Source: Sipunculus nudus (taxonomy: Eukaryota; Annelida; Sipuncula; Golfingiida; Sipunculidae). Taken from it: a DNA stretch of 64,000 nucleotides. Both the position numbers and the translations under genes were made by a program. The DNA lies in contig CM049308.1 of NCBI GenBank assembly GCA_026874595.1, positions 46,445,327 through 46,509,326 on the forward strand, in the 5' to 3' direction. The notes below the pieces were generated by a model. That model was not told the origin of the DNA. It worked only from the letters and a program-made list of their open reading frames with translations, and did no database searches. Positions within the stretch are counted from its first letter, which is position 1. Each line of letters starts with the position of its first letter. Positions 25,459 to 55,267 of this stretch are shown in pieces.

Positions 25459-25501
25459 GGTGCCAATATATTGTTGACAGAAGAAGGTGATGTTAAGTTA
25501 G
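25459..25501 (+). CDS. MAP4K3/5-like kinase, exon encoding catalytic-loop end to beta9
   Basis: Encodes GANILLTEEGDVKL plus the first base of the next codon (Ala of ADFG). The N in GAN is the metal-binding Asn of HRDIKGAN. The exon is flanked by TTTTGTTAG and GTGAGT, with phase 0 entry and phase 1 exit. The sequence is typical of Ste20/GCK kinases and joins in frame to 31,248. The preceding exon with HRDIK is not recognisable upstream in the window. The protein would be a cytoplasmic Ser/Thr kinase acting above JNK or mTORC1-type pathways in known animals (family knowledge, not shown here). Two repeat termini lie just upstream (25,330 and 25,390). Confidence 0.92.
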
Positions 25502-26287: not shown

Positions 26288-26632
26288 GTATCCCCAGACA
26301 AAGTCGGGGGGATACTATGTTTTCATGCGGGTCCCCCCGCCGCCGCCGCATATAAATCTTGTTGGCACGATAACTCAAAAAATATATCACGGATCTTTAC
26401 CAAACTTGGTATATGTATAGATATGGGTGAGAATACGATGCCTATTCAAAATGAGGTCATGACCTTTACTAGGAAAGTGTCCTTGACCTTGAATAAGTCC
26501 AGTTTAAGGGAAAATCACACAAATTCTTAAATATCTCAAGAAATCTTGCATGGATTGATCCCAAAATCAAGTTGATTGAAGATCATGGATAGGGTTGTCA
26601 TGTTCCAGGAACTGGTGGCGCCACCTATTTTT

Positions 26633-29600
26633 AGCTCAGCTGACTATAAGTCATCTGAGCTAAAGTCGTGGTCCATTGTCCGTCTGTCTGTCCGTCCGTC
26701 TGTAGATGTGGCACGTTTTGAAACCGTAAGACCTTGGAATCCAAAATTCAGCATAATGTTAGATGTCCCCAAAATCTCCTATCAATGCCGAAAACTGGGT
26801 CTTTGCGACTTCGTTCCTTTGAGAAATTAAGGAAAAACCTCAGTTTTTTAGCTCAGCTGACTATAAGTCATCTGAGCTATAGTCGTGGTCCATTGTCCGT
26901 CGTCCGTCCGTCTTGCCGTCCGTCCGTCTGTCCGTCCGTCCGTCAGTAGATGTGGCACGTTTTGAAACCGTAAGACCTAGGAATCCCAAATTCGGCATAA
27001 TGTTAGGTGTCCCCAAGATCTCCTACCAAGCCCAAAACTGGGTCTTTGTGACTTCGTTCCTTTGAGAAATTAAGGAAAAACCTCAATTTTTTTTTAAAAA
27101 CCTATTTTCACACTTCAGGACTGCCTAATATAAAAACCACTCATCTGTGTTTCCTCATATTTACCATAAATATTCCTCTATATAGTTCCTATGTACATGC
27201 CAGAAATTATGTCTGTATTATATAATTTAAAAAGTTATGGGCCCAAACATAATGCATTGTGTAAAAAATCAGGAAAGATATTTGATCACTTAACACAAAA
27301 TATGTTAAAGCTATAAACTTATTTTCCAGTAATATAACTTTAATTAATCAAAATTAAATTGTATACCCAAAATTAGATCAAAATCTTTTAAATTTTTTAA
27401 AATATTAACAAAAATAAAAAATTGGTACCTTAAATTTTGCCCAACTAAATTTTGACCATGGCACGTTCTTTTCCTGAAAGTACTGTGGATTTAATTTTCA
27501 CAGCATTTTTTTTTTAGCATTTTGTCTGTAAACACCAAAAATTTGAAACCAGTTGATCAAAAACTGTAGATTTTATTCAAGTTTTCAAGCACCATGTAAC
27601 ATATTGTTTACATCAAGCTAGTGTCATGCAGTTTGCAAGTGCTCAGCTCCCCAGTTTCAGCTCTCAGTTCCTAAAATTTGGCATGCAATTAGATGTCTCA
27701 AAAATCCCCTACCATGCCAAGAATTTGGTCGCTAGGACTTAATACCTTCGAGATATTAATGAAAAACTTCATTCTTCCATTAAAAACCCATTGTTACACT
27801 TCAAGACTGCCTAATATCAAAACCACTGATCTGACTTTAATCATATATAATATATATATTCTGGATTCTCAACATCATTGTTTGGTGAAAACTGAATAAA
27901 TACCAGACATGGTGCGAATACTTTGTAATTGTATTTATGGGAATTCAGGTAAAAATGAAAGTATATGAATACCAGTGCAAATACTTTCAAAATGTATTAA
28001 TGAATGCATTCATGAATATATTCTTTAATATTATTTTAATAATCATTCCAGTTATATTTTATTTGAAAAATCATACTATTCTCTTATTATTTTTAATAAA
28101 AATTATATTTGGGACAATATTTGTAATTTTTTTAATAAATAGTTAAACTCTTATATTATATGTTCTGCTTATAAGTTATATGGCCAAGTCAAAATCTGTG
28201 TGACAATCGTACTCCATTTGTTAATAAAATAAATGAAATTAATCCTCTTTCCTGTCTCCAAAGGTACAATCAAAATCATACATAAGCTAAACAACAACAA
28301 CTCATAATACAGCTTATTTTTATTACCACATAAAACCAGCATGTGCCTCATTTCTAAATCATATTTTTTTATCATATATAACAGCTGAGCGCCGTGACCC
28401 ATAGGTCCCTTGTTTTAAAAATCCTATTTTCACACTTCAGGACTGCCTAATATCAAAACCACTCATCTGTTTTTCCTCATATAGTTCCTTTGTACCTGCA
28501 AGAAATTAAGTCTGTAAAGTATAAATTCTTTAAGTTATGAGCCCAAACATAATGGACTTTGTAAAAAATCAGGAAAAATAATAACTCAATTAACATGAAA
28601 AATTTTGAAACTAGAGTCTATTTTCTCAAGTATATAACTATGTTTAATTAGGATTTAATTGTTTACCGAAAATTAGATCTGAATTTTGTAAATTTTTTAA
28701 GTTATTAGCATAAAAAAAAAAAAATCAGTACCTTAAATTTTGCCCAACTTTGACCATGGCACGTTTTTTTACTATAAGCACCATTGATTTAATTTTCACA
28801 GCATGTAAACATAACTCTTAAGTTTGTCTAAATCTGAAATTTGAAAATAAAAGCTTGAAAATTAAGCCAGTTATTGATTTTTTTTTTCTGTAGTCACTTG
28901 CTTTGATTACGGATGCAGGGTCCCACTCCAGGTCACTGGAAGTCAGCTATGCCAGGGTTTCTGATTTGTTACAGTCACTGGGGGAGATCTCCTGCTGTGA
29001 CAGGTGTACAGTTATTCTCATATCACCACCCCAATCACCCCCCCCCCCCTCAAACCCAACCCACCAAGTGTTATGCACTAATTGTTATTGTTTTCACTGT
29101 ATCTCCTTAATTGTAATGCTGTTTCCACTCCAATATGCAAAAACTTTCCATTAAAAAAATAATTCAAGGTGTAATCAAGAAGATGCAATGTTGTGTAATG
29201 TAGCAGTTTTAAAGGAATCAGTTTTCTTTTAAATGATTTTCACAAATATAATTGAACCCATCAGTATGCTTAAATTATTATAAAATATGAAGCACATTAT
29301 GGATAAATAAAGACACTATTAAAAATTGTGAAATCTAAATCAAGTATTATTTTTAGATATTTATTGTTTTGCAGATTAAAAGATATATTTTTGTGGTAAA
29401 AAAATAAATAAACATTTGTATGCATGATGTGGTGTTATCTGACAAGATTGAGATTTATGATGATGCAATTGAGAATTATGAATCAACTTTTATATTCAGA
29501 TATATATGTTAAATTGGAAATGTATAGCAATATAAACTTAAATTAGAAAATAATTGATGTGATAAAAAAATGAGGATTTAATACAAACATTTGTTCATTA

Positions 29601-30050
29601 TTTTCCTGCCTCAGCAGAATTTGAGATCAGGCTTTGTTTGCCCTGTTTTATGTTGTTAATTAGCTATATTTCAACTGTATACATTTCATTAAAAAAATAC
29701 ATATATATTTAATAATATATATTATACAAAAAAATAGATTCAATTGAACAAATGTGTAAACTACTGAAATGTCAACAGTTAATCGAAAAACCAACTAATG
29801 ATCATGGTAATAGTACAGATCATTTGTTCACAAACTGCTCACATGCTTTAGTTTCAACATTAGGAAACACATGGTCAGGTCACAAAATATTTTTTGCAAC
29901 AATTTCTTGCTCATCAATACAAACAAATCATATGGCCAACCATGGCCTTTATTACCTCTTCCTCTTACTCTTTATCTCCATTTGATATTATTTTAGATAT
30001 TTACCTTCAAGGTTAACGTCAGCTGAGCACAGTGACCCATAGGTCCCTTG
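26633..30050 (+). mobile_element. R1 element interrupted by a second R1
   Basis: R1 head hairpin at 26,633, tail GACCC-ATAGGTC-CCTTG ending at 30,050. A second complete R1 sits in its T-run after CCTCAG (26,850-28,412). Outer sequence resumes at 28,413 with AAAAATCCTATTTTCACAC, which matches the uninterrupted version near 27,095-27,115. Contains poly-C near 29,039-29,050. Confidence 0.8.
26850..28412 (+). mobile_element. R1 element nested in R1
   Basis: Head hairpin at 26,850 directly after TTTTTT, with a long GTCCGTC run (about 26,897-26,945). The tail CAGCTGAGCGCCGTGACCC, ATAGGTC and CCTTG ends at 28,412, followed by TTTT. A further truncated R1 body (27,690-27,835) and an R1-tail copy (27,859-28,412) lie within, so the element is itself composite. 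Confidence 0.75.
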
Positions 30051-30937
30051 TTTTAGACCTCTTAATATGCGGTCATCTGTTAACAGGGCACAAATCGTAA
30101 TGACTGGACCTAGAATCTTCTCTCTTGACATGCAGGGAGGCCAATGAAAAGTCTCCTTGGAAACTTGAAATTAGGTCTCTGTTACCCATATTCTCCTAAC
30201 TATTGGGCTTATAAGAAACCCCCAGAATCATTGAAAATTTTATACAAAAGCTCCAGTATCTGAACAACTAAATCATTAATCACAATGTTTCTTTGCATGC
30301 ATATTAATCCTGGAATGTTTCATCATTTTCTGAAGACTGGTGGCGCAAGCTGGATTTTTTTTTTAATTTTTAAGCAATTTTTCTCTCTATTTTTGTGACC
30401 TTTGATATGCAGTCATCCATTAAAAGGGCACAAATCATAACCACTCGACATGGAATCCTCTTACTTGACATCCAGGGAGGCTAATGAAAAATCTCCTTGG
30501 AAACTGGAAATTAGGTCTCTGTTACCAATATCCGCTGAGCTGTGGGGCTCAGAATTAACCCCCCCCCCCCCTCCAGAATAATTGAAAATTTGATACCAAA
30601 GTAGGGCACAAATCATAACCATTGGACCTAGAATCTACTAACTTGACATCTTGAGACTCAAAATTCTCCTCAGACACATGAAATTGGTCACTGTAACCCA
30701 TATTTTCCAACTTAAAGGGCATAATTTCAAGAAATAATGCGAAATACATACAAATTGCCAGATTCCTTAGGAACAGCTGAATGGATTGTCATCAAATGTG
30801 GTGTGCATATGGGTCTTGATGAACTTAAGCTAATTACATGAATGATGGTGCCACCTATGTATCTTAACTAGTTGCCTGTGTAAGGACATTTTGTCATCAT
30901 GTCAGTCGGCTGAGTGTCATGACCCATGGGTCACTAG
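30051..30937 (+). repeat. R7 fragment with CTAG-type end
   Basis: Two to three R7 body units (GACCTAGAATCTTCTCTC, GGAAACTTGAAATTAGGTC, ACCCATATTCTCCTAAC). The poly-C at about 30,559-30,571 interrupts one unit. It ends GGCTGAGTGTCATGACCC, ATGGGTC, ACTAG at 30,937, then TTT. The end shows that the R1/R7 terminus can be CTAG as well as CTTG. Confidence 0.75.
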
Positions 30938-31247
30938 TTTGCAGTCCACATTAATTTAGACTTACAGCTGAAAAAAAAAAACATTAAAAGTCTTCTCCAA
31001 TGATTCTCAAATTTTTCTCTGTCTAGTAAAATTGTTCAATAATTCACAAAAATAATCCAAGAAACAATCTGATTTTTGAGTTACAGCAGATCAATTTGTA
31101 CATGTCACAAGGAGCAAGACCTATTGTAAATAGGTTATAGCCAAGTTTGCAGATATAATGGCATCTCTGATGCCAGAAGTGTCTAGTCATATATTTTATT
31201 TTGTGCCAAATTTGACAGCTGTTTACTTAATCTTGGTTTAATTTCAG

Positions 31248-31320
31248 CGGACTTTGGTGTATCAGCTCAGATCACTGCCACAATGTGCAAACGAAAATCC
31301 TTCATCGGAACCCCATATTG
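31248..31320 (+). CDS. MAP4K3/5-like kinase, activation-segment exon
   Basis: After ATTTCAG, the exon completes Ala and encodes [19 protein letters not shown], then IGTPYW; the Trp codon is split (TG|G) with exon 3. DFG binds the catalytic magnesium. The [11 protein letters not shown] block is the GCK-I activation loop, including the Ser/Thr region phosphorylated on activation. Vertebrate MAP4K3/5 have Ile-Ala-Lys where this has Met-Cys-Lys. The donor is GTGGGT. Phase 1 entry and phase 2 exit match both neighbours. An R2 terminus lies 61 bp upstream and an R1 head 225 bp downstream. Confidence 0.95.
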
Positions 31321-32790
31321 GTGGGTGCATACTTCAGATTTTTTGTTAGTTTTATACACAGAGCCATGTGGCCTAATTTGCAGAAGCTTGTTTTACCAAA
31401 GTTTATCCTACTACACGTAACCAGACTAAACAAGCATCATGTGTATTAGGGTTAAGTAGTTGTTAAGAATATGATAGCAGATTTGGAGAATTGATTAATA
31501 ATCTTGAGATTGTTAATGCTGGGCTGTAAACATATGAACATTTTTAGCTCAGCTGACTATAAGTCATCTGAGCTATAGTTGTGGTTCTCTGTCTGTCGGC
31601 TGTCTGTCCTTCTGTCTGTTAAACTGGCACGTTTAGAAACTGTACAACCTATAGCTATAAATCTGAAATTCGGCATACAGTTAGATGTCCCAAAAATCTC
31701 CTACCATACTGAAAATTGGGTCACCAGGACTTTTTTCCTTCAAGATATTAAGGAAAAATCTCTGTTTCCATTAAAAAACCATTGTTATACTTCAAGAATG
31801 CCTAAAATCAAAATCACTCTGACTTTGATCATATATAATATACATGTTCTTCTATACACAATCTATGCACATGGCTAGAAATGATGTCAGTATTGCATAA
31901 TTGTTTTAAGTTATTGGCCCGAACATAATGCACTTTGTAAAAAATTAGGAAATATATTTACTCCCTTAATTTGAGAATTGCTGAAGCTAGAGACTTTTTT
32001 CAGGTGTATAACAATATTTAATCAAGATTCAATTGTATCCCCAAAATTAGTTCTGAATTTTTAAAATTTTTATAAGTTATTAGCATAAATATAAAATCAG
32101 TACCTTAAATTTTGCCCAAATTGACTATGGCACGTTTGTTTCCTGTGAGCACTGTTGATATAATTTTCATATTATGCACACATAAGGATTTCAGCTTGTT
32201 AGTTTTGAAAGTTTAAAGAAATTGGCAAAAATCTGTATCTTTTATTGAAGTTTTTATGAGACCATGTCACACCTTCTGACCTTTCAGGCAAATTATGCAC
32301 GCTTGAGGCGGGGCATATACTGTTCAGCGAGGCAGCTTATGGCTGGCACCAGTTGATCCAAATGTCCAACCCTACTCATTGATTAGTTGTTTTGACCAAC
32401 AACATAACACTATACAATAAATAAAAAATGTTTACAGGTCTACAATAACACTTTAAGAAAAATTAATAGAAAAGGAATTTGGTAGTTGATGAGTAACAGG
32501 GAATTACCTTGCAATGACTGATGTTTTATGGGTTTTGTATGGATGGATAAAAATGTATTCCAAATAACACAATGGAGTCACCTATGGTATTTTTCATTTC
32601 AATCTTAACAATGAAAAAATAATAATTAAATTAAATTATTCTTTACTATTAGGGATTATATGAAGGAAAATAATGATAGACAAAGATGCAGTTGATAATA
32701 TTAATCTAAATTTCCAGGTCTTTTACAAGTGTTTCAGCTTGTTAATTTATATTTATTTCAAAATTTAAAAAAAATTAAAATAAGTCAACA
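31321..32790 (+). repeat. Kinase intron with R1 copy starting at 31,546
   Basis: 31,321-31,545 is single-copy intron. The R1 head hairpin at 31,546 is followed by the GTCTGTC zone and a full R1 middle. 32,270-32,390 matches 250-480 and 32,400-32,790 matches the R1 tail of 15.8 kb. No own tail palindrome is seen before the next R1 starts at 32,796. Confidence 0.75.
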
Positions 32791-35541: not shown

Positions 35542-36705
35542 AGCTCAGCTGACTATAAGTCATCTGAGCTATAGTCGTGGTCCATTGTCCGGATGTCCGT
35601 CCATAAGACTGGCACGTCTCGACACCATTGGACCTACGAATCTGAAATTCGGCATAATGTTAGATTCCCCAAAATCTCCTACCAAAATTGGGTCAATAGG
35701 ACTTTGTTCCTTCGATATATTAAGGAAAAACCTCAAAAACTTCAGGACTGCCTTATATCAAAACCACTCATCTGGTTTTCTTCATATTTACCTTAAATAT
35801 TCCTCTATATAGTTCCTATGTACATGCCAGAAATTAAGTCAGTATTATTCAATTTAAAAAAGTTAAACAAAATGGACTTTGTAAAAAAATCAGGAAAGAT
35901 ATTTGGTCACTTAAGACCAAAAGTGTTAAAGGTAGGGACTTTTTTTCAGTAATTCAACTTTAATTAATCAAAATTTAATTGTATACCAAAAATTAGATCA
36001 AAATCTGTTAAATTTTTTTAAATATTGGCAAAAATATAAAATTGGTACCTTAAATTTTGCCCATCTTTGGCCACGGCACGTTTTTTTCCTGTAGGTATTG
36101 TGGATTTAATTTTCACAGCATGTACACATAAGGATTTAATCTGTTTAAATCTGAAATTTAAGCTGCAAAATTAGGCTTGTTATTGAATTTTTTTGGAGGC
36201 TCTTGTTGTATTCCCTTACATTGTCAAGCAGTCCACTTTGGTGACTGTAGGTCATTCAGTGCAGCTCTCTCCAATGAGTTGAGCTTGATCAGGCTGTCTG
36301 CAGTTAATACCATACCACAGGGTGCCTTTTCCTCTGGCAACCCCCCCCCCCCCCCACCTCTACCCCATTCTTTTGACAGACCTGTACTATAAACTAGATG
36401 AATCTTAAAATTAACATTTTTTTCAGCAACGAGCAGTAACAACGGAGACCCCTCCCCCCACCCACCCCTTCATGTTACTTTTATGTAACACTTCCCATAG
36501 GCCTATTTCTTCCCTTGGTGCATCACTAAATGGTTTAGCTCATGTCCATTATTCTATAATATACAGAGTTTCATTTTAGCAGGGCCATTTTCTCACAGCT
36601 TTTCTAATGATTATATACATGAAAAACCAAAAGAAATAAAAATATTGTGCAGTTACTATTATTTTTCCAAAATTCAGCTGAGCGATGTGACCCATGGGTC
36701 TCTTG
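35542..36705 (+). mobile_element. Complete R1 element, best single reference copy
   Basis: 1,164 bp with both ends: head hairpin AGCTCAGCTGACT-ATA-AGTCATCTGAGCT at 35,542 and tail CAGCTGAGCGATGTGACCC, ATGGGTC, TCTTG ending at 36,705. T-runs border both sides. Inside are one GTCCG zone, the gene-like AAATTCGGCATAATG block, a poly-C tract (36,340-36,355) and AT-rich text. No transposase or Rep/helicase domain is encoded, so it is non-autonomous. Confidence 0.8.
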
Positions 36706-36710
36706 TTTTT

Positions 36711-38595
36711 ATGCCCCCCCCCCACAAAGTGGCCGGGGCATATAGTTTTACCCATGTCCGTCATTCCGTCATTCCGTCATTCCGAAATCAAACAGTTGTA
36801 CAGACTTTTTTTCGCAATGCCTGCAGATATTGGCCTGATTTTTGGTGTGTGGGCAGATAATGACCAGTTACAGATCGAGTTCGCGTTTTGTCCCGGTTGA
36901 CCTACTTTTGACCGTTTTACGGCCCCTAAACTTAGAAAATTTCATGAAAAATAGAAATTTTCATGACAAATACACATGTATGGACTTTTTTTCGCAATGC
37001 CTGCAGATATTGGCCTGATTTTCGGTGTGTGGGCAGATAATGACCAGTTACAGATCGAGTTTGCGTTTCGTCCTGGTTGACCTACTTTTGACCATTTTAC
37101 GGCTCCTAAAATTAGAAAATTTCATGAAAAATAGAAATTTTCATGACAAATACACATGTAAGGACTTTTTTTCGCAATGCCTGCAGATATTGGCCTGATT
37201 TTTGGTGTGTGGGCAGATAATGACCAGTTTCAGATTGAGTTCGCGTTTCGTCCCAGTTGACCTACTTTTGACCGTTTTACGGCTCCTAAACTTAGAAAAT
37301 TTCATGAAAAATATAAATTTTCATGACAAATACACATGTACGGACTTTATTTTGCAATGCCTGCAGATATTGGCCTGATTTTCGGTGTGTGGGCAGATAA
37401 TGACCAGTTACAGATCATGTTCGCGTTTCGTCCCGGTTGACCTACTTTTGACCGTTTTACGGCTCCTAAACTTAGAAATATTCATGAAAAATAGAAATTT
37501 TCATGACAAATACACATGTACAGCCATTTTTAGCCCTCAGCTCATAGGCTGATGGGCTATTTTCGTCACCCAAGCTGTCCGTCTGTCCATCTGTCTGTCC
37601 GGTGTCTGTCCGTCCGTCCGTCCGTTCCGCGTCTGTTAACTTTTACCTTGTGAGCGGGATATCTCTAAAAGGATTCACTGTTGGAATTTTATTTCATCAG
37701 TGAAGATGTATATCAATAAAATCTCGGTCAAGTTCGAAGATGGGTGACCTTGACCCATTTTTCTACATTTTATAGCTGATTATAGAAAAACACTCAGAAG
37801 TTTATATCTCAGGAACCATTGTGTGGATTTTCACAAAACTTACTATGATCATTGGGACTGATGGTCTGTATGTGCTGCACAATTTTGGTGGCGCCACCTG
37901 CAATTTCTGATTTTTTAATGAAATTTTATCGGATTTTTTTCAATTTTGGCCTTTTGTGCAGGATATCTCCAAAGGTATTCAACACAGGAACTTCATTTCT
38001 TCAGTGCTATTGCATTATATTTACAAAATCTTGGTCAAGTTCAAAGATGGGTGATCTTGACCTACTTTTCAAGGTCACAGAGCTTAGTATAGAAAAAAAC
38101 TTAGGAGCTTATTTCTCAGGAAGCATTTGGTGGATTGTTATGAAACATGGTATATGCCTCTCCAATTTAAATTTATAAATGATTATCAACTTTTGCTAAT
38201 ATTCTAGTTTCGCAATACAATGCTTACAGATACTGGCCTAATGTTAGGTCTGTGGGCGCATAATGACCACTTACAGATAGAGTTCGCATTTCGTCCCAGT
38301 TAACCTATTTTTCACCATATGACAGATCCTGAACATAGAAAATTTCATGAAAGACGGAAATTTTCATGAAAAATGCACATATATGGACTTTTTTTTACAA
38401 TGCCTGCAGATACTGGCCTGATTTTTTGGTGTGTTGTTTGATAATGACCCTTTACAGATCGAGTTTGCATTTTGTCCTTGTTGACCTACTTTTGACCATA
38501 CAACACTTCCTGAACTTAAAAAATTTTTACAAAATTTAACAAATGTTTCTAATTTGCCCCAGGCGGGGGCATTCGTGTCGTTCCGACACATCTAG
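36711..38595 (+). mobile_element. R4 element with 180-bp tandem units, split by R5
   Basis: Head ATGCCCC..GGGGCAT at 36,711 followed by GTCCGTCATTCCGTC. The tail is GTGTCG-TTC-CGACAC, AT, CTAG (ending 38,595), then TTTC. Body units carry CGCAATGCCTGCAGATATTG and TGACCAGTTACAGATCG; their starts lie at 36,811, 36,991, 37,171 and 37,351, exactly 180 bp apart. Two diverged units follow R5 (about 38,209 and 38,395). Non-coding. Confidence 0.85.
37532..38207 (+). mobile_element. R5 element nested in R4
   Basis: 676 bp. The head AGCCCTCAGC-TCATAG-GCTGATGGGCT is a hairpin with one bulge, followed by a GTCCGTCCGTCCG run. The body has ATATCTCTAAAAGGATTCAC, GGTGACCTTGACC and TGGTGGCGCCACCTGC. The end is ATTCTAG, then TTTCGCAAT of R4. 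The R4 units provide the empty site (GGACTTTTTTTCGC), showing insertion in the T-run without a longer target duplication. No clear terminal hairpin was seen before CTAG. Confidence 0.8.
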
Positions 38596-40194: not shown

Positions 40195-42069
40195 GTATCC
40201 GCAGAAACAGGGTTTTGCAGATACTATGTTTTCAGTCGGACCCTGCCGTCGCCGCCGCTGCCGCCGCATAGATTTCCAGAGAACTCCTCCGTAACCACTC
40301 GGGAGAATTTTTTTAAATTCAGGATTATGATCAGGTCACATGTGAACTGCTGTGCCCTCATTTTTGGTTGACCTGTGACCTTTCCTCTCTGCAAAGTGTC
40401 CATTTGTGTCTGTTTCCACACACAAACCCACATATCTTGGGAATTGTTTAACCAATCAGGCTAAACAATTTGCATAAATGTAGCCCCTTGATAGCTTTAT
40501 AACATACAATAAAAACTGTGGTGCCACTTGCAACCATTTTTGCACAGCATCCATCTGTTCATCTGCCTTGGGCTGAAATCACTCATATCTCTGCATTGGA
40601 CTTGAAATTTTGCATTTGTATACATCCTAGATAGCTTTCTTAATTTTATGACAGGTGGCACCACCTACATTCACGTTAATGCTGCAGACATCCAAGCTCA
40701 TATTTCGAGAACCGTCTGACTGATTGGGCCCAAATTTTGCATATGTATAGATCGCATATAGCTCTTCATCATATGCTAATTTAGTGGGGCCATCTGCAAC
40801 CATTTTTGCACAGCGTCAATCTGTTTGTCTGCTGTGGGATAAAATCACTCATATCTAAGTAGTGGTTTGACTTATCTGCCTAAAATTTTGCATATGTATA
40901 CAACTTGGACAGCTTTCTCAATTTTGTGGCAGGTGGCACCACCTACATTTATGTTAATGCTGCAGACATTCAGGCTTATATCTCAGGACTTGTTTGACAT
41001 ATCCCCCTGAAATTTTGTAGGTGTATAGATCTCACATAGCTGTTAATGATACACAAGATTAGTGGCGTCACCCGCAACCATTTTTGCACAGCATACTTCT
41101 GTTTGTCTGCTGTGGGATAAAATCACTCATATACAAGTAGTGGTTCGACTTATCTGCCTTAAATTTTGCATATGTATACAACTTGAATAGCATTCTGGAT
41201 TTTGTGGTAGGTGGCGCAACCTACATACACATTTTAGCTGCAGACATCCATGCTAATATGCAACACACTTCACTCTATTTCCCCTTGCCACTGAATCCAT
41301 GACTCACTTCACCCATCCCACTCTGATTTTGGGGGAACAGGTAGTCGCTTGTCAACTACTACAATCCCAAGACAGCAGAAATCTTGCGCTTCTAAAAAAG
41401 CAACTGATTTTCACGCTGCCAGCTTTGACCGTTTATGATATATTTAGACACCAGATGGCGGTTTGTTGTCCACTGAAACAAACGTGCGTACGATGTGACA
41501 AGCAGCCAATCAGATGCCAATAAACAAACACTCGACAGGCATCCTGGCTCCACCCATTGCCGCACTTCAAGCGCCGTTTGATGAGTATCCGGTCGAATTT
41601 AAATTGCTCCCTCTGCATTCTCGCATCATCGACCGATTCGATTATGACTGTGTTAGCGTAGCCATGTATCTGTTGTCTGCAGAACTGAAACCAGCCAGCG
41701 AGGTGTGCACGCAGCCTTTGTTGTTACGTTTCGTTTGAATTACAGCTCACCGGCCGAGCATCCTATGTGCCCAAGGCCCTAAGCAAACCACGTCAGGGGC
41801 AATTCTCTCTGAGCCTGTGGCCTGTTTAGACGGTTACGCTGGGGGATGAGCTGTCACTCAAAAAGAAATGAATATGATTGGCTCCGTGTTTTCCCTGCTT
41901 GGCTTTGTCTTCCAGCACAAAGTTTCATCTGATTGGACAAAATACAGTGCTCCCCTCTGGTGTTGCAAAGCAGGATACGAGGTCATAACAAACAGCGCCT
42001 TACGATATAGGAAGTAGCCCTATAGGTAAAGCGCTGTGTAAAGAGCGTAGTCGACTACCGATTTTCTAG
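40195..42069 (+). mobile_element. R3 element with two terminators and an extra 3' segment
   Basis: Head GTATCCGCAGAAAC.. at 40,195 and a GCCGCCGCTGCCGCCGC stretch, then ~275-bp TGGCGCCACC-type units as in the copy at 53,164. The expected terminator hairpin is at 41,341-41,359 but has one stem change (TCAACTAC) and no CTAG. About 690 bp of unrelated, more GC-rich sequence follows, then a second terminator GTAGTCGACTAC (42,047-42,058), CGATTTT and CTAG (42,066-42,069) before TTTT. The flanks, CCTAGTT and TTTTAAAATGTCC, join into text seen uninterrupted, inverted, at 18,693-18,716. Confidence 0.8.
41360..42046 (+). other. Extra segment between two R3 terminators, possible captured host DNA
   Basis: Distinct from every repeat in the window and richer in G+C than its surroundings. 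CCAATCAGATG (near 41,507) and inverted ATTGG boxes (near 41,876 and 41,932) are present. Two overlapping 74-codon frames occur at 41,299-41,523 and 41,514-41,738; I recognise no domain in either. It could be captured promoter or exon sequence, or the body of another element. Confidence 0.5.
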
Positions 42070-44136: not shown

Positions 44137-44303
44137 TTATGTATTCTGTTCATCATTTTATAAGATAATTTACTCATTCACATCGTTTTAAGAACAGATT
44201 TGCATGTATAAATATGTCTGTATGCAATTATATTCACAACAAGCCCCAGAACAAATCAATAATCGTCACTGCCAAACTTTCTGGAATTGATCCTAGGCTA
44301 ATT
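44137..44303. other. Short spacer before the R1-head array
   Basis: No recognisable repeat or gene; AT-rich. It ends CTAGGCTAATT directly before the first tandem R1 head. Confidence 0.4.
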
Positions 44304-47300
44304 AGCTCAGCTGACTATAAGTCATCTGAGCTATAGCCGTGGTCCTTTGTCCGTCGTCCGGCCGTTAACAGGGCACGTTTTGAAACCGTTGAACCAACGA
44401 TTCCAAAATTTTGCATACCATTAGATGTCCCCCAAATCTCCTACCATTGTTACTCTTCAAGGCTGCCTAATATCAAAACCACTGATCTGTTTTTGATCAT
44501 ATTTAATATTCAAATTCTTTCCTACATTTTCTATGAACATACAAAAAATTAGGTCAGTGTTAGGTATTATTTTGAAGTTATGGGCCAAAATATAATGCAG
44601 TTTAAAAAAAAAATCAGGAAATATATTTGCTCAGCTAACATGAGAATTGCTGAAGCTTGAGACTTTTTTTTTCAGGAATATAACTTTATTTTATCAAGAT
44701 TCAATTGTTTACCCAAAATTAGATCTGAATTTTGCAAATTTTTCAAGGTATTAACATAAATAAAAAAATCAGTACCTTAAATTTTGTCTAACTTAGGCAA
44801 TAGCACGTTTTTTCCCTGTAAGCACTGTTGATTTAATTTTCACAGCATATATACATAAGGATTTAATCTTTAAAAATCTGAAATTTTAAAGGAATTGATT
44901 GAAAAGTGTAGCTTTATTCAAGTTTTCATACACCATGTCAAGTGTTGTTTACATCTAGCCCACCTAGTAGTACAGCCTTCACTTGCATTATGTAACCCAC
45001 CCCAGGCAGCTTGCCTTGGCTCAGCTTGGCCACTACTAGCAGGCTTCCCTTTGCCCTGCTCTCCCCCCCCCCCATAAACTAGATGAGTGTTATTATTTTC
45101 TGTATTTGATTCATTCTTATTCTAGGCTATGCTACATTTTAAAATTTGTATTGTACCACAAGGGTTACAATGATTAAAGTGCACATTTAATCGTGTCCAC
45201 AAAGTAGTGTATTGCTATGAAAGTGTGAATGTTCATCAGATAAGTAATTCCTTCAGAAGAGTAAAAACTTCACCAGGTGTGAAATTGACTATTAATTCCA
45301 GTAATAAATTAAAGCTGGGATAGTAATTAGCACAATGATATTGTTTGTCCCTCGTTCAACCAACAAGGTGTATACTTTATTTGAAAAGATGTTTTATTTT
45401 ATCAAATTTAGTGAATCCTTTATTTTATTTCCGTGAATAAAATTAAGCATATACTGAAAACTCCAATATGCAAAACTTTTTAATAGTAATTCAAGGAATG
45501 ATCTTGTAGATGCCATATTGTAGCATTATTTTCGTTTAAATTCAGTTTAAAAATTTGTGTTTTAAAAATAAAATATATGTGTATGCATAATATGACCCAA
45601 TATGAGCTACACTCTGGATATATAATGATTGCAACTTTTGCAACAATTCTAATATTTGACCTTATATTTTCAGTTTTTTTAGCTCAGCTGACTATAAGTC
45701 ATCTGAGCTATAGTTGTGGTCCTTTGTCCGTCGTCCGTCCGTTAACAGGGCACGTTTGTTTTGAAACCGTTGGACCTACGATTCTAAAATTTTGTATACC
45801 ATTAGATGTCCCCAAAATCTCCTACCATACTGAAAATTGGGTCATTAGGACTTTGTTCCTTCGAGATATTAAGGAAAAACCTCCGTTTTCCATAAAAAAG
45901 CCATTGTTACACTTCAAGGCTGCCTAATATCAAAACCACTGATCTGTTTTGATCATATTTAGTATTCACATTCTTTCATACATTTTCTATGAACATACAA
46001 AAAATTAGGTCAGTGTTTGGTATTATTTTAAAGTTATGGGCCAAAATATAATGCAGTTTAAAAAAAATCAGGAAATATATTTACTCACCTAACATGAGAA
46101 TTGCTGAAGCTAGAGACTTTTTTTCAGGAATATAACTTTATTTAATCAAGATTCAGTTGTTTACCCAAAATTAGATCTGAATTTTGCAAATTTTTCAAGG
46201 TATTAACATAAATAAAAAATCAGTACCTTAAATTTTGTCTAACTTAGGCCATAGCACGTTTTTTCCCTGTAAGCACTGTTGATTTAATTTTCACAGCATA
46301 TATACATAAGGATTTAATCTTTTAAAATCTGAAATTTTAAAGGAATTGATTGAAAAGTGTAGCTTTATTCAAGTTTTCATACACCATGTCAAGTGTTGTT
46401 TACATCTAGCCCACCTAGTAGTACAGCCTTCACTTGCATTATGTAACCCACCCCAGGCAGCTTGCCTTGGCTCAGCTTGGCCACTACTAGCAGGCTTCCC
46501 TTTGCCCTGCTCTCCCCCCCCCCATAAACTAGATGAGTGTTATTATTTTCTGTATTTGATTCATTCTTATTCTAGGCTATGCTACATTTTAAAATTTGTA
46601 TTGTACCACAAGGGTTACAATGATTAAAGTGCACATTTAATCGTGTCCACAAAGTGGTGTATTGCTATGAAAGTGTGAATGTTCATCAGATAAGTAATTC
46701 CTTCAGAAGAGTAAAAACTTCACCAGGTGTGAAATTGACTATTAATTCCAGTAATAAATTAAAGCTGTAATAGTAATTAGCACAATGATATTGTTTGTCC
46801 CTCGTTCAACCAACAAGGTGTATACTTAATTTGAAAAGATGTTTTATTTTATCAAATTTAGTGAATCCTTTATTTTATTTCCGTGAATAAAATTAAGCAT
46901 ATACTGAAAACTCCAATATGAAAAATTTTTTAATAGTGATTCAAGGAATGATCTTGTAGATGCCATATTGTAGCATTATTTTCGTTTAAATTCAGTTTAA
47001 AAATTTGTGTTTTAAAAATAATAAAATATATGTGTATGCATAATATGACCCAATATGAGCTACACTCTGGATATATAATGATTGCAACTTTTGCAACAAT
47101 TCTAATATTTGAACTTATATTTTCAGTTTTTTTAGCTCAGCTGACTATAAGTCATCTGAGCTATAGTCGTGGTCCTTTGTCTGTAGTCCGTCCGTTAACA
47201 GGGCACGTTTGTTTTGAAACCGTTGGACCTACGATTCTAAAATTTTGCATACCATTAGTTGTCCCCAAAATCTCCTACCATACCGAAAATTGGGTCATTA

Positions 47301-48598
47301 AGACTTTGTTCCATCGAGATATTAAGGAAAAACCTCCGTTTTCCATAAAAAAGCCATTGTTACACTTCAAGGCTGCCTAATAGCAAAACCACTGATCTGT
47401 TTTGATCATATTTAGTATTCACATTCTTTCATACATTTTCTATGAACATACAAAAAATTAGGTCAGTGTTTGGTATTATTTTAAAGTTATGGGCCAAAAT
47501 ATAATGCAGTTTAAAAAAAATCAGGAAATATATTTACTCACCTAACATGAGAATTGCTGAAGCTAGAGACTTTTTTTCAGGAATATAACTTTATTTAATC
47601 AAGATTCAGTTGTTTACCCAAAATTAGATCTGAATTTTGCAAATTTTTCAAGGTATTAACATAAATAAAAAATCAGTACCTTAAATTTTGTCTAACTTTG
47701 GCAATAGCACGTTTTTTCCCTGTAAGCACTGTTGATTTAATTTTCACAGCATATATACATAAGGATTTAATCTTTTAAAATCTGAAATTTCAAAGGAATT
47801 GATTGAAAAGTGTAGCTTTATTCAAGTTTTCATACACCATGTCAAGTGTTGTTTACATCTAGCCCACCTAGTAGTACAGCCTTCACTTGCATTATGTAAC
47901 CCACCCCAGGCAGCTTGCCTTGGCTCAGCTTGGCCACTGCTAGCAGGCTTCCCCTCTGCCCTGCACTCCCCCCCCCCCCCAAAATGGTGCATTAACTAGA
48001 TGAATGTAATAATTTTCTGTATTTTATTTTATTCTTGGCTATGCTACATTTGAGATTTTTTATTGTACCACCAGGGTTACAATGATTAAAGTGTACATTT
48101 AATAGTGCCCACAAAGTGGTGCATTGCTATTAGTTGTGGATGTTCATCAGATAAGTAATTCCTTACTTCAGAGGAGTAAAAACTTCACCAGGTGTGAAAT
48201 TGACTATTAATTCCAGTAATAAATTAAAGCTGGGATAGTAATTAGCACAATGATATTGTTTGTCCCTCATTCAACCAACAGTGTGTATACTTTATTTGAA
48301 AAGATGTTTTATTTTATCAAATTAACTGAATCTTTTATTTTATTTCCGTGAATAAATTTAAGCATATACTGAAAACTCCAAAATGCAAAACTTTTTAATA
48401 GTGATTCAAGGAATAATCTTGTAGATGCCATGTTGTGGCATTATTTTCTTTTTAATTCAGTTTAAACATTTGTGATTTAAAAATAATAAAATATATGTGT
48501 ATGCATAATATGACCCAATATGAGCTACACTCTGGATATATAATGATTGCAACTTTTGCAACAATTCTAATATTTGAACTTATATTTTCAGTTTTTTT
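44304..48598 (+). repeat. Three tandem ~1.45-kb R1-head units
   Basis: R1 heads at 44,304, 45,681 and 47,134 each start a unit running through the R1 middle, a poly-C tract and an AT-rich end closing with TTATATTTTCAGTTTTTTT. Offsets are 1,377 and 1,453 bp; the two later units keep identical order. Unit 1 lacks about 75 bp between two CCAT words (after CTCCTACCAT), a deletion with microhomology. Copies are nearly identical, so amplification is recent. Open frames of 93-116 codons recur only because the DNA does. Confidence 0.9.
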
Positions 48599-49668
48599 AC
48601 TGTGTATATATAATGAGTGCAACTTTTGCAACAATTCTGATATTTTAACTTATATTTTCAGTTTTTTTTATTAAAAATTTATAAAACTTGTAAATAAAAA
48701 AATGATTCAGATAAAAACTTCTTAATGGAAAAAGTGGATATGCTATAAAAATAGGTTTATACATAGACTTAAATGCATTATTCCCTTGAAAGTGAAATAA
48801 AGGTATTAGTCCACTCTGTCCACTTGCCTGTCCCTCTGTTAATTTTCATATGCATCACAGTATCTCAAAACTTTTACTGTTTTTCTTCATGACAGTCTTG
48901 TCAGAGTATTAGTTTGCAATCATATATTTAGAACTTTACTATAACCAAGTAGGAGGGCCCCTTTCCTCTTAGCTTTTCATATTCTTATATAAATGAAAAA
49001 CATTAAAATAGAATATTTCTACATCCTCCTTTGTGCTGCCCTCACTTATCCCTTCTCAGAACCCCATCCCAAAGTCAGCTTCAGTAAACAAGAACAAGAT
49101 GAATCAGATATATTCTTACTTTAATATTTTGTATAACTATTCGTCCATAGGTACCCATGTACATGCCAGAAATTATGTCAATATTGGGTAATATGTAGAC
49201 ATAGTGGGCATCACAATAATGTACCTTGTCAAGACTAAAGAGATATTGTGTCATACAGTCACAAATTCATAAATCCCTTCATCAGCATAGTTATTCATAA
49301 CATCATATCTGTCAAAATGAAAGCTTGCAGACTTCCATACACTTTAAATCCTTCAACAAATAGCCTTATCATCATTCTACTACTGCTTATTACTGCTGTT
49401 ATTGCATTCATATTTGCTCAAATATATCACAATTTTCAACCCCTCCTAAATAAATAAAAAATGAACCACTATATTTTACTCTATTAGTCCATCAGTCAGG
49501 TAATTTCATTTATCATTTACTCACATATTACATTACATTCCTTTATAATAGCCCAACATATCCATGATATTCATAAGCTTTATTGACTCTATATAGTATC
49601 ACAGTGGAGAAACGTTTATAGTCCAATCAAGATCAGCTGAGCGCCGTGACCCATGGGTCCCTTGTTTT
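48599..49668 (+). repeat. R1-tail unit 1
   Basis: 1,070 bp from ACTGTGTATATA to the R1 terminus CAGCTGAGCGCCGTGACCC, ATGGGTC, CCTTG (ends 49,664) plus TTTT. Unit 2 starts immediately. It is a clean, uninterrupted reference for the insertions in unit 2. Confidence 0.85.
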
Positions 49669-49879
49669 ACTCTGTATATAAAATGATTTCAACGTTTGCA
49701 ACAATTCTAATATTTTAACTTATATTTTCAGTTTTTTTTATTAAAAATTTATAAAACTTGTAAAAAAAAAAAATGACTCAGATAAAAACTTCTTAATGGA
49801 AAAAATGGATATGCTAAAAAAATAGGCTTATATATAGACTTAAATGCATTATTCCCTAGAAAGTGAAATAAAGGTATTA

Positions 49880-52277
49880 CCATATTCGACGTAACAAGCG
49901 CCCCTCCCGTAATAAGCGGCTCCACCCCCCACACCCTCACACACTAACGGATTTTGAAGGAGATCACATTAAAAAAAAACTAAGGGATGAACCTCACTTT
50001 TCTCCCTAGCCAATATAATGTGGTGCGACGTTATACTTTCATTTCTCCCCGCCAAGCTTATATAATAATAATAATAGTTGCACACCACAGAGTCAGTGGT
50101 CAAGTGTATCATAGATTACAATGACCAACTGTGTCCGTGAAGGCGGGCCCTGCAGGTGGCCATGCCAATCGGGAGACCTGAATGAGCTGGGGTCTTATTG
50201 CCACCGAAGTACGTAGAGCTCGGCAGTTATCGTCGATTCTCAATTGATTTGATCAACGTTCTTAAAACATTAGATTCTCTATTATCCTTTGGTATGGAAC
50301 AAATATCCCTCTGGCTTTGCACCGTAATACCACCCAAAACAGCCTTAAATAAGATCTGTATTACTCCTGCTCCCAGCAATGTCAAGATGTAAATTGTGTA
50401 TTTACAACGCTCAATTCTATGATTTCACATGATTTAATATGAATAGGAATTCCTCAATGAACATTCGCTCCAGATAGCCCTGTGACCTCGCTGTGTGTTG
50501 AAAAATACCCGCGCCGGGCCATGACATTTTTTATTGTTAACACCCAATAACTCATATGAAATGGATAATTCTTTAAAAAACAACGATTAACTGATTAAAC
50601 CCAGGACAAGTTCGAATGTGCTTATACCGGTTCCCACACTGTCTGAAATATTAGTGGAGAAAAAATAAACAGGGGTCGAAATATTTAATTCTTTTTTGAT
50701 GACGGGAATTCTAAATGCCTGAATCAATTCCCGACCGGGAATGTAACATTGTCCGGTAGAATTCCAGGTCTGTGGCGGGAAATCAGCGGCCCTGGTCACT
50801 TTCCCACTGATACGAAATACATCCAACAGTATAAAGCAAAATTCACCTTTTTCCCTTTTCACAATTCTAAAAGAAAATAATTTCAATTATCCGCCATTTT
50901 CATTGGAAAGATATGCTGATAAAATTAGGTCCAGTCTTCTGCTTCCGGTTTCCGACCGACCTTTTCTCTGTTCTGCCGACCAGTATTTTCTTTTTATGAT
51001 CTCTATGATTGGAAATCCATTGCATACCTGTTTCATTAAAACATACAGACAGAAATGCACTATAAAGTGTTACAACTTGGTCAAAAATAATTGATTAATG
51101 CCTTCTAGTTTAGAAAGACCCGCCAGAAGCTCGTGTCTTTCAAGTGGAGTACCGTACACAAATTCTCGGTGGTACCCTGGCTGTGGTCCCCTTGACAACG
51201 GCCCCTTGGCACATTCAATCTGGTTTGCCCCCTTTATTCCAACATCGTTCGGTTTAGATTGTGAAAGGGCTTTTGCAGTTTTTAATACAGAATGGGAAGC
51301 AATTTCTCAGTACCAATGTGATCAACTGGTTGTCTCAAAACATTAGATTTTTTTTTTAAATTTAATCAAAGTAGCGTTACAGTTTAAATGTAACTACAAA
51401 TGGCGAAAAAAGTGAGAAAATTTATGCCGCACGCAGGTGTACGATCAATCAGCCATGACACCTTCTGACAATGGGCCTCATTGGTCTGCTCACTCACTGC
51501 CGTTCAGAGCTTTTTATCTTTAAATTATTATCTTTAGATTACTTTATCAAGCCCATCCTTTTCAACACATTATGAAAAGAATAATACAAACTATCTTTAC
51601 CTGTTCATGAAAGTATTTATCCAGTATTTATCTGGATAATAAATTGTCGGATCAGAGGTCGTCTGTTACAGGCTACCTGTTCAGATATCGCCCGTTCCAA
51701 TGTCTTCTGTTCCGATGTGGTCAGCCTGGAATGATTCTTTCCCTGCCACCGTGGGCACGTTGCGCACACCATGGCTATTATCGCTCGCATGTAGCTAGAA
51801 TCTCCCGATTTGTCATTAAAATAGTTAACAGATATGGCATGTACTGAGGGTGTGAAATTTACATGTTTTTTTTTAATGTTGTGACGTCCTTTTCTGTAAT
51901 TTATCAGTGGCGCCCAAGCTTTGATCAAATGATTAGGTTTGAGTATTCAGTTTATTTTCTGTCCATGTAACCATGTCAACACTTGCAATATGTTGATATT
52001 TACTTGCTTAATTCATGAACTGTCGCTTGGATTAGTTAATATTTTCTCAAAACTTCACACAACCATCACTAAAGATCGTGAGTTTTTTTTTATAATTGCT
52101 GTGAATGAAGTCAACCACGTGTACACAAGTCGCAGTGTCAGAGGATCGTAACGCACTTTGGTAGTTGGCAGATGTTGGTTGAGGGGGGGGGGGGGGGGGG
52201 CGCTTATTAGGGTATAAGAAAGATTTGGGAAATTTCAATTTTGAGAGCGCCCGGGGCGCTTATTACGTTGAATACGG
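49880..52277. mobile_element. DNA transposon with TA target duplication and ~26-bp inverted ends
   Basis: The left end CCATATTCGACGTAACAAGC and the reverse complement of the right end, CCGTATTCAACGTAATAAGC, match except for three bases, and both continue GCCCC. TA flanks both sides (49,878-49,879 and 52,278-52,279), where the empty R1 tail has a single TA (GGTATTAGTCC). TA duplication is typical of the Tc1/mariner-pogo group; assignment beyond that is uncertain. The 2.4-kb interior has open frames up to 99 codons (50,587-50,886, minus) but no DDE or HTH domain I can recognise. Probably non-autonomous or decayed. A poly-G run lies at about 52,182-52,200. Confidence 0.85.
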
Positions 52278-52315
52278 TAGTCCACTCTGTCCACTTGCCT
52301 GTCCCTCTGTTAATT

Positions 52316-55267
52316 GTATCGCCAGACATAGTCTGGAGATACTATGGTTTAGGCACGGTTGCGCCGCCGTCGCCGCTGCAGAGATTTCTTTTGGACACAA
52401 TAACTAAAAAAATATTTCAAGGATCTTTTTCTTGACACATTTATAGATATAGGTGAGAGGACGAAGCCTATTTAAAATGGGGTCATGACCTCAACTAGGA
52501 GAGTGACCTTGACCTTGAATAGATCCATTTTTGGGGAAAATCACACAAATTCTTAAATATCTCAAGAAATCTTTCATGGATTTATCCAAAAATCAAGTTG
52601 GACAAAGATCTTGGATAGTGATGTCATGTACCGGAAACTGGTGGTGCCACCTAGTATCCTTTTCTTGTTTTTGTGCCGTTTAATACCCCCATCATTGCCA
52701 CTTGACAGTACTTTTAGCATCACAAGTCAAAAACTGATTGACAGATTTCTTTAATATTAAGCATGTACATAGGTATGGGTTATGGGATGATGTATATCAA
52801 AATTGGGGTCATGACCTTTCCTTTGAGAGTGGCTTTGACCTTGAATATTACCATATATGGTGAAAATCACATAAAATCATGAATATCTTAAAAAGGGATG
52901 CATGGATTGGTCCAAAAATCAAGTTGACGGAAGATCTTGGATAGTTTTGTCTTTTGCAGAAGATAGGTGGCGCCACCTGTTGTCCTTTTCTTGTTTTTTG
53001 CGCCTTTGAATACCCCATCATTGCCACTTGACAGTATATACTGTGAGCATTATAAGTCAAACAGTAATGGACAGATTTCTTTCATGTTATGCATGTATAT
53101 AGATATGGTTTATGGAATGAGGTATATTTAATTTTAAATTTAATTTTAAAATTTAATTTAATTGTATCCGCCAAAACATAGTTTTGCGGATATTATGTTT
53201 TCAGCTGCACCCCGCCGCCGCCGCTGCGGCGTAGGTGTCCAGTGAACCTCTCCGTAACCGCTGGGCGGAATTTTACGAAACCCGGGATTATGTTCGGGTC
53301 ACATGTGAACTGCTGCGCCCCGCTTTTGTTTTGACCTCTGACCTTTCCTCTGCGCTCTACGTCCGTTTGTGCGTCTGTTTCCACACATAAACCCACATAT
53401 CTCGGGAACCGTTTGACCGATCAGGAAAATTTTTTTGCACAAATGTAGCCCTTGGAGAGCTTTATAACATACACAAAAAATGGTGGCGCCACCTGCAATC
53501 ATGTTTGCACAGTGTCCATCTGTTTGTCTGCCTTGGGTTAAAATCACTAATATCTCTGCAGTGACTTGACTAATTCACCTGAAATTCGGCATGCCTAAAC
53601 ATCCTGGATAGCTTTTTGATTTTATAACAAATGGCGCCACCTACATTCACGTTTACGCTGCAGACATCCAAGCCCATATCTTGGGAACCGTTTGACCGAT
53701 CAGGAAAACTTTTTTGCACAAATGTAGCCCTTGGAGAGCTTTATAACATACACAAAAAATGGTGGCGCCACCTGCAGCCATGTTTGCACAGTGTCCATCT
53801 GTTCGTCTGCCTTGGGTTAAAATCATTCATATCTCTGCAGTGACTTGACTAATTCACCTGAAATTAGGCATGCGTAAACATCCTGGATAGCTTTTTTGAT
53901 TTTATGACAGGTGGCGCCACCTACATTCACGTTTACGCTGCAGACATCCAAGCTCATATCTCGGGAACCGTTTGACCGATCAGGAAAATTTTTTTGCACA
54001 AATGTAGCCCTTGGAGAGCTTTATAACATACACAAAAATGGTGGCGCCACCTGCAGCCATGTTTGCACAGTGTCCATCTGTTCGTCTGCCTTGGGTTAAA
54101 ATCACTCATATCTCTGCAGTGACTTGACTAATTCACCTGAAATTCGGCATGCGTATACATCCTGGATAGTTTTTCTGATTTTATGACAGGTGGCGCCACC
54201 TACATTCACGTTTACGCTGCAGATATCCAAGCTCATATCTCGGGAACCGTTTGACCGATTGGGCCAAAATTTTGCATGTGTATAGATCTCACATAGCTCT
54301 TTATCATACGCAAAACTGGTGGTGCCACCTGCAGCCATTTTTGCACAGCTCCTGTCTGTTTGTCTGCCACAGGATAAAATCACTCATATCTTGGCAGTGG
54401 TTTGACATATCTGCCTAAAATTTTGCAGGTTTAAACATCCCCGACAGCTCTCTTGATTTTATGACAGGTGGCGCCACCTGCATTCTAGTTTATGCAGCAG
54501 ACATCCAAGCTCATATCTTGGGAACCGTTTGACCGATTGGGCCAAAGTTTTGCATGTGTATAGTTCTCACATAGCTCTTTATCGTACACAAAACTGGTGG
54601 TGTCACCTGCAACCATTTTTGCTCAGCGTCCATCTGTTTGTCTGCCACGGGCTAAAATCACTCATATACATGTAGTGGTTTGACTTATCTGCCTTAAATT
54701 TTGCATATGTATACAACTTGGACGGCTTTCTGGATTTTGTGGTAGGGGGGGCAACCTACATACACAATTTGGCTGCAGACATCCATGCTAATATGCAACA
54801 CTCTATTTCCCCTTGCCACTCAATCCATGCCTCACTTCACCAGTTCCACTCTGATTTAGGCAGATACACGTAGTCGCTTGTCGACTACCCGTATTCTAGT
54901 TTAAATTATTTTTTTTTTAATTTTATTTATTTTTTTCAAATGTTGGATATTTTGGAATGCAGTTTATTGATTTGGGGTCATGACCGTGACTATGAGAGTA
55001 ACCTTGACCTTGAATATTCCCATATTTGGTGAAAAACATAAAATCATTAATATCTTAAAAAGGGCCACTTGACAGCACTGTGAGCATTATAAGTCAAAAA
55101 CCCTTTGATCAATTGTCCTTCCCAATCCAAAATATTCCTATATTTTGTACAAATGTTTCTCACATTCATTGCTAAAATACAAATACATCACATTATATCA
55201 ACAAAATACCACAAAACCTCATTTGTCTGGCGATACTATGGCACCTGCGGTGCCAAGAAATGTCTAG
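52316..55267 (+). mobile_element. R2 element containing a nested R3
   Basis: The head GTATCGCCAGAC-ATA-GTCTGGAGATAC at 52,316 is a near-perfect hairpin, with CCGCCGTCGCCGCTGC next. The body has GACCTTGACCTTGAATA and GGTGCCACCTAGTATCC, repeated in two to three diverged units. The tail is GGCACC-TGC-GGTGCC, AAGAAATGT, CTAG (55,264-55,267), then TTTT. R1-tail unit 1 gives the empty site GTTAATTTTCATATG. The filled site has TT on the left and TTTT on the right, so only two extra Ts. About 1.2 kb without its R3. Confidence 0.85.
53164..54899 (+). mobile_element. R3 element nested in R2, intact terminator
   Basis: Head TATCCGC-C-AAAACATAGTTTT-GCGGATA, a strong hairpin, then CCGCCGCCGCCGCTGCGGCG. 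The body has nine TGGCGCCACC-type boxes between about 53,484 and 54,600, alternately ~130 and ~149 bp apart. The terminator is GTAGTCG-CTTG-TCGACTAC, CCGTATT, CTAG (54,896-54,899), then TTTA. At 1,736 bp it is the reference for the altered copy at 40,195. Non-coding; reverse frames are repeat shadows. Confidence 0.85.

Follow-up and report, generated by a model that had tools for sequence, protein, structure and literature searches.

Six Helentron-like repeat families of Sipunculus nudus, a probable coding partner for one of them, and their shared local strand

A stretch of C3 in the 1.43-Gb genome of Sipunculus nudus (C3:46445327-46509326; 64,000 nucleotides, hereafter the window) is filled with six repeat families, R1 to R6, that differ in sequence, appear to be built alike, and lie on one strand. 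Which class of transposon do they belong to, what could have moved them, and why do they all face the same way? Helentrons are rolling-circle transposons with a Rep (HUH) nuclease, a PIF1 helicase and an AP-type endonuclease. To our knowledge, there is no settled answer to how eukaryotic rolling-circle transposons choose their targets.

The window carries kinase exons on its plus strand that we take, from their motif, to be those of a MAP4K-like gene. Because these exons lie at 25459, 31248 and about 59834, the stretch between them is mostly intron. The features are as follows.

25459..25501, plus strand: host kinase exon, GANILLTEEGDVKL, then GTGAGT
31248..31320, plus strand: next host kinase exon, 24 amino acids, borders read by eye
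about 59834..59965, plus strand: further host kinase exon, 44 amino acids, borders approximate
12909..12937, plus strand: R1 5' end
16845, 17342, 18340, 22214, 25390, 30937, 56086 and 61417, plus strand: further R1 3' ends
near 18693, opposite strand: R3 empty site
26288..26328, plus strand: R4 5' end, GTATCCCCAGAC hairpin
26850..28412, plus strand: R1 copy, nested (judging by the order of ends) in an R1 with 5' end 26633 and 3' end probably 30050
29755..29904, plus strand: R1 stretch matching the 3' endonuclease end of a clade-B Helentron, 80% over 150 bp
31546, 32796 and 34942, plus strand: R1 5' ends; 42970, plus strand: R1 3' end
35542..36705, plus strand: R1, from a 5' end to the R1 3' end that follows it, presumably a pair
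36710..38595, plus strand: R6, with TATGCCCC..GGGGCATA hairpin, 180-bp units, 3' inverted copy GGCGGGGGCAT, hairpin and CTAG
37532..38207, plus strand: R5, nested in R6, with a hairpin at the 5' end and a pronounced GTCC zone but no visible 3' palindrome
40195..42069, plus strand: R3, with GTATCCGC hairpin, GCC zone, GTAGTCGACTAC palindrome and CTAG
44304, 45681 and 47134, plus strand: R1 5' ends in a chain, the copy at 47134 innermost
47134..49664, plus strand: R1 copy, with AGCTCAG..CTGAGCT 5' hairpin, GTCC zone, 3' TCAGCTGAGC, GACCCATGGGTC palindrome and CTTG; its ends presumably pair
52316..55267, plus strand: R2, with GTATCGCCAGAC hairpin, GCC zone, 3' inverted copy TGTCTGGCGATAC, hairpin and CTAG; empty site at 48841
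53164..54899, plus strand: second R3 copy, nested in R2
57254, 60203 and 60496, plus strand: further R1 5' ends
63386..64000, plus strand: third R3 5' end, running off the window

Other elements occupy the remaining sequence. A 77-bp tandem unit forms a long array at 6418-12036 (about 73 copies, 90% matches between copies), and an open frame of 208 amino acids at 20909-21535, with no Pfam match at E 0.01, has the look of what is presumably a remnant of a Penelope-like (GIY-YIG) element. Among the R1 and R2 repeats, at 49880-52280, lies an element of about 2.4 kb with inverted ends TACC(A/G)TATTC(G/A)ACGTAA(C/T)AAGCGCCCC, apparently a TIR transposon; one of its internal 24-mers has 18 exact matches genome-wide. 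No tRNA genes were found in the window.

The first-pass annotation had proposed that the six families follow one layout, seen in nearly all of them: a hairpin at the first base, a GTCCGTC-rich zone, degenerate tandem body units often with a recurring motif, and a 3' palindrome shortly before CTAG or CTTG and a run of T. We found this layout to be largely real, although less uniform than claimed. All six 5' ends fold from base 1 or 2, with z-scores of -2.7 to -5.0 and only 0-2 of 200 shuffles folding as well (one copy of each family). The recurring body motif TGGCGCCACC, a near-palindrome found in the body units of different families, occurs exactly at 22 sites from 18630 to 63874 and with at most one mismatch at 35 sites in the window; its reverse has none at that tolerance. 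In the R3 copy at 40195..42069, body units of about 278 bp carry a motif resembling it. CTAG or CTTG followed by T closes R1, R2, R3, R5 and R6. The GTCC-rich zone is present in R1 and R5, but R2 to R4 have a zone of GCC repeats in its place, and R6 carries a TCCGTCAT repeat. A 3' palindrome stands near the ends of R1, R2, R3 and R6 and near an end at 31186, but none was seen in R5; the folding energy of the R1 and R3 palindromes is not exceptional. In three sequences both arms of the R1 palindrome change together, from GACCCATGGGTC to GGCCCATGGGCC, which is probably a single event.

Each element was searched near its 3' end for an inverted copy of its own 5' end, against 300 shuffles. As good a copy arose in none of the shuffles for R2 or R6 and in 5 and 15 for two copies of R1, a moderate result; for R3 (124 and 44), R4 (256) and R5 (81) the match is not above shuffles. 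Neither a 3' palindrome nor an inverted copy of the 5' end is visible in R5. Possibly the CTAG-type 3' end at 31160-31186 is that of R4; it lacks the matching inverted copy and shows no match to the R4 5' end, leaving the 3' end of R4 uncertain.

The same annotation had deduced insertion into T-runs from empty sites. Direct reading bears this out for R2, whose empty site GTTAATTTTC becomes GTTAATT, R2, TTTTC when filled, and for R3, where CCTAGTTTTAAAA becomes CCTAGTT, R3, TTTTAAAA; each insertion adds two Ts. To these we added a pair for R6 from outside the window, filled in H_C3 and empty in H_C7, two elements that are 97% identical: ATTTTTTCTTG becomes ATTTTTT, R6, TTCTTG, again with two added Ts. 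For R1 (7 T against 7+4) and R5 (7 against 5+3) the positions of the proposed empty sites agree, but the comparison is one of repeat units with varying T-runs. Three filled and empty pairs, for R2, R3 and R6, thus give T/T insertion with a target duplication no longer than TT.

We then turned to the elements that could supply the machinery. The genome holds 143 scored matches to PF14214, and Rep motif 2 is present in 29 of 30 fetched loci. In 27 of these 29 it has the form GSPH, whose S between G and P serves as a criterion for Helentrons in the consulted part of PMC4067079. The annotation had proposed searching for a Rep/helicase element with the same ends as the repeats, and this search was positive for R1: its 3' end is shared with RepHel-endonuclease Helentrons of one group, clade B, whose Rep motif 2 reads FYRVEFQQRGSPHIH, and its 5' end with one of them. 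Pfam places Helitron_like_N, PIF1, DUF6570 (L041, L046) and Exo_endo_phos_2 (L046, L048) in clade-B frames. No DDE transposase or reverse transcriptase, the finds that had been named as speaking against a Helentron, appeared among Pfam hits in the seven Helentron frames scanned.

The link between R1 and clade B is clearest at the 3' end. We examined 13 stretches, namely H_C7, H_C3 and 11 others (nine chosen from 91 matches, plus C13 and C17), leaving a 101-base stretch, L065, out of the comparison. The R1 3' terminus lies downstream of the clade-B endonuclease in 8 of the 13 and is absent from 5. In H_C7, where Pfam finds Rep and PIF1 domains and an endonuclease remnant can be seen by eye, 34 of 34 bases of the R1 3' end stand 0.2-0.5 kb past that remnant. 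In H_C3, the R1 3' end follows a Pfam-confirmed endonuclease frame by about 0.15 kb, and the similarity between H_C3 and H_C7 stops at the R1 3' end. An R1-type 3' end also stands where pairwise similarity stops in 6 of the 11 further stretches, one of which (H_C17) has Rep motif 2 and GDFN within a single frame of 1966 amino acids.

At the other end, H_C3 carries 29 of 29 bases of the R1 5' end after TTTTT, on the same strand and 28.9 kb upstream of the 3' end, with a GTCC zone behind it. Matches between R1 copies of the window and H_C3 cover the first 0.8-1.2 kb of the latter, the longer ones at 72-84% identity. H_C3 is the one copy that supports the 5' end of the R1 Helentron, since its first 1.2 kb is rearranged and only 88% like H_C7; this end could be that of a nested R1. 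With their coding regions broken up over several frames, both H_C3 and H_C7 look like dead copies. Around H_C7 (L055/L042), about 0.8 kb of the right flank is repeated, at 97%, on the left, near a 5'-truncated end. The frame of the C13 Helentron (L046) has a weak Herpes_teg_N match at residues 16-56 (E 1.4e-5; 25.2 bits against a cut-off of 25), where the RepHel frame begins.

Two other candidates for the partner were rejected. Clade-A Helentrons, which make up 23 of the 29 motif-bearing fetched loci, contain no R1 to R6 end in 16.9 kb of L039/L040, and L067, near a GWPH-type Rep (L035), contains only an R3, which faces the opposite way from that Rep. No coding partner for R2 to R6 was recognised in the loci checked. 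The identity of two clade-A copies remains at 99% until a sequence is reached that, read on the opposite strand, has the form of a 5' hairpin with a GT-rich zone; the Rep of these copies therefore seems to point the wrong way relative to their ends. This apparent opposition concerns L039/L040, L045 and L066, of a second Helentron clade, and the end in L066 is similar.

Could R1 to R6 instead be canonical Helitrons (Helitron1), which begin with TC, end in CTRR and insert between A and T? A 3' hairpin followed by CTAG does occur in the set, and one Helitron-type Rep (GLPH, L010) is among the fetched loci. However, none of the families starts with TC (the ends begin AGCTC, GTATC, AGCCC or (T)ATGCC), the 5' end forms a hairpin of its own, repeated in inverted form close to the 3' end of R1, R2 and R6, the sites are T/T, and both an endonuclease and the GSPH motif are present in the partner of R1. 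We consider a canonical origin very improbable. Shared ends, genes, T-run sites and the lack of a long target duplication argue instead, with a probability of roughly 0.87, that R1 to R6 are HINEs, non-coding deletion derivatives of Helentrons, and that the partner of R1 is a large clade-B Helentron of the same genome. The Helentron identity proposed by the first-pass annotation is thus supported, strongly for R1; for R2 to R6, whose membership among the HINEs we infer, the argument is one of architecture and sites only. R1 is very probably a HINE of clade-B Helentrons, since it shares their ends and its copies in the window match both the start of H_C3 and the endonuclease end.

That annotation had also suspected a wider superfamily, and here it did not hold as a novelty: the architecture is already published (available portions of PMC5148889 and PMC7492417). 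As described in the part of PMC7492417 consulted, Cg_HINE of Crassostrea gigas has a 5' terminal repeat with an inverted partner, a GTCY/GTCC microsatellite, tandem body units, a 3' inverted copy, a palindrome, and TT insertion without target duplication. This is the order of parts in R1 to R6, as far as each family has them, a likeness of layout. The same part of that paper reports both orientations of Cg_HINE and describes neither a local strand preference nor a coding partner. Like R1 to R6, the DINE-1/HINE elements and Helentrons covered in the accessible text of PMC4067079 have subTIRs, a 3' palindrome, T-rich sites and variable Ts, and likewise a RepHel plus endonuclease with GSPH and non-coding copies that outnumber the coding partner. 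Unlike what that text gives for DINE-1/HINE, the 5' repeat of R1 to R6 begins on base 1 or right beside it, and the likely partner of R1 is 28.9 kb long. In the sections seen of PMC5148889, Helitron2/Helentron elements are marked by a hairpin at each end together with an asymmetric inverted repeat. There, the Helitron2-type FoHeli elements of Fusarium resemble R1 to R6 in their asymmetric terminal inverted repeat, in having end hairpins in part of them, and in forming composites with several 5' ends; they differ, as far as those sections go, in their termini and site preference. Since the order of parts is thus published for DINE-1/HINE, Cg_HINE and Helitron2, R1 to R6 are additional members of a described class.

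How such elements would move can be outlined on this basis. We infer a single-strand route and mobilisation in trans. RepHel would recognise the 5' hairpin or inverted repeat and the 3' inverted copy plus palindrome, and would peel off one strand, 5' to 3'. This strand would be joined into a T-run, leaving two extra Ts. The target may be captured on a single strand in the course of a directional process, which is most likely transcription (the non-template strand) or replication.

The orientation of the copies bears on this last step. All 28 R1 ends of the window, and all 11 ends of R2 to R6, lie on the plus strand, which is that of the host gene; the first-pass annotation does not mention this. 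Self-comparison of the window, leaving out low-complexity matches and the 77-bp array, gave 106,012 bp of repeat similarity on the same strand and 125 bp on the opposite strand, and these 125 bp are the empty-site repeat of R3. T-run asymmetry was rejected as a cause of this bias: T-runs and A-runs in the window are too even (224/246 of length at least 5; 49/39 of length at least 7). Genome-wide, exact end patterns are balanced between strands (R1 3' 1485/1431, R6 3' 1127/1139, R3 5' 2114/2059, and R1 5' 6675/6757, or 13,432 in total), and reversed controls gave no match.

We therefore asked whether strands agree locally on C1, where the first 100 matches listed per end pattern all fall. Among the matches listed, 90 of the 114 pairs that combine different families (R1, R3, R6) no more than 50 kb apart share a strand, a score reached by none of 500 label rotations; without the first 3.2 Mb, the listed pairs agree in 49 of 71 (3/500 rotations) within 50 kb and in 17 of 25 (18/500) within 20 kb. 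At 200-400 kb, all listed matches included, agreement is 196/369 (86/500 rotations). R1 and R6 agree, again among listed matches, in 14/14 pairs within 20 kb, 16/19 at 20-50 kb and 18/34 at 50-100 kb. All 16 listed R6 ends with R1 5' neighbours within 50 kb follow the neighbours' majority (0/99 rotations); for R3 this is 12 of 14, yet 13 of 99 rotations reach it, and the result is less sure. Within families, still for listed matches and without the first 3.2 Mb, R6 pairs agree 18/18 up to 50 kb and R1 pairs 4/4 within 20 kb but only 5/11 at 20-50 kb; listed R3 pairs agree in 14/20 to 15/21 up to 20 kb and 7/12 at 20-50 kb. Families switch strand together, with domain borders set after seeing the data: among listed matches, 1.2-1.45 Mb is all plus between minus domains (four R1 5', one R1 3' and three R3), and 3.2-3.56 Mb is plus for R1 5' (11/12), R1 3' (2/2) and R6 (4/4). 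In fetched loci outside the window with R1-type sequence and R3 or R6 sequence, strands agree in 3 of 6 (L003, H_C7, H_C17) and disagree in 3 of 6 (L008, H_C3, H_C13).

Could this agreement be an artefact of local duplication and nesting, rather than of independent insertions? The chain at 44304-49664, with three successive R1 5' ends, the later two beginning in the T-run that ends the preceding unit, and a single 3' end, has the look of a nested, duplicated or composite R1; such duplication or nesting in one site speaks for this explanation, and composite Helitrons with several 5' ends are known (PMC5148889, in the sections seen). However, different families agree in 52/67 pairs at 20-50 kb, and R1 5' ends agree with R6 in 30/32, both on C1 among the matches listed. 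Simple nesting is disfavoured because the concordant cross-family copies lie too far apart, and we regard this as the least probable source of the strand agreement.

Selection is a more serious contender, though still a doubtful one: antisense copies in introns would be removed as harmful to the host transcript. Between the kinase exons, the elements read in the sense direction of the gene. On the mapped part of C1, only six places with coding motifs (EGF, zinc finger, kinase, cadherin) were found; four of these have Helentron ends within 60 kb, and all nine such ends among the matches listed are on the gene's strand. Within 12900-62000 of the window, ATTAAA is commoner on the antisense strand (92 vs 49). 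Against selection, AATAAA is about equally frequent on the two strands (77 and 71), and domains of about 1 Mb exceed usual genes. The agreement of nine in nine is weak, since every one of the six coding places is on the minus strand. The gene of the window and the coding places on C1 hint at sense insertion.

Alternatively, the strand domains may follow the direction of replication forks, with insertion into single-stranded DNA of the lagging strand as in IS200/IS605, to which the Rep nuclease is akin. The orientation of IS200/IS605 follows replication (PMC5371812, available part). Over the first 1.2 Mb of C1, nearly all of the matches listed are on the minus strand (R1 5' 40/41, R1 3' 15/15, R6 6/6, R3 6/6), as this explanation would have it; but without the first 3.2 Mb, agreement among listed matches is 44/77 at 50-100 kb and 141/279 at 200-400 kb, and the domain of the window coincides with a gene. 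As an explanation in its own right, fork direction seems to us unlikely.

A one-strand preference that spans tens of kilobases and is common to different families suggests that one target strand is captured during a directional process, a cause that may be specific to Helentrons. As a control from outside the Helentrons, no other abundant repeat was recognised among the fetched loci, and the TIR element has only its 18 exact matches. The reading we tentatively favour, at somewhat less than even odds, is that Helentron insertion is itself directional, elements being joined preferentially to one target strand over tens of kilobases to about 1 Mb, the same across families, probably via capture, by an intermediate of Rep and DNA, of a target made single-stranded by transcription (non-template strand) or lagging-strand replication. 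A limited search of the open literature, including the available parts of PMC5876387, PMC13286980, PMC5371812 and PMC5148889, found no report of Helentron strand domains.

With R1 to R6, a class already described gains members in one more genome, and the coding Helentron paired with R1 identifies the machinery that is likely to move it. Of greater consequence than the new families are the strand domains. If orientation follows transcription or replication, this is directly testable with many copies, the exact R1 5' ends alone numbering 13,432; and if directional insertion is true, the orientation of Helentrons would be a fossil record of germline transcription or of fork direction.
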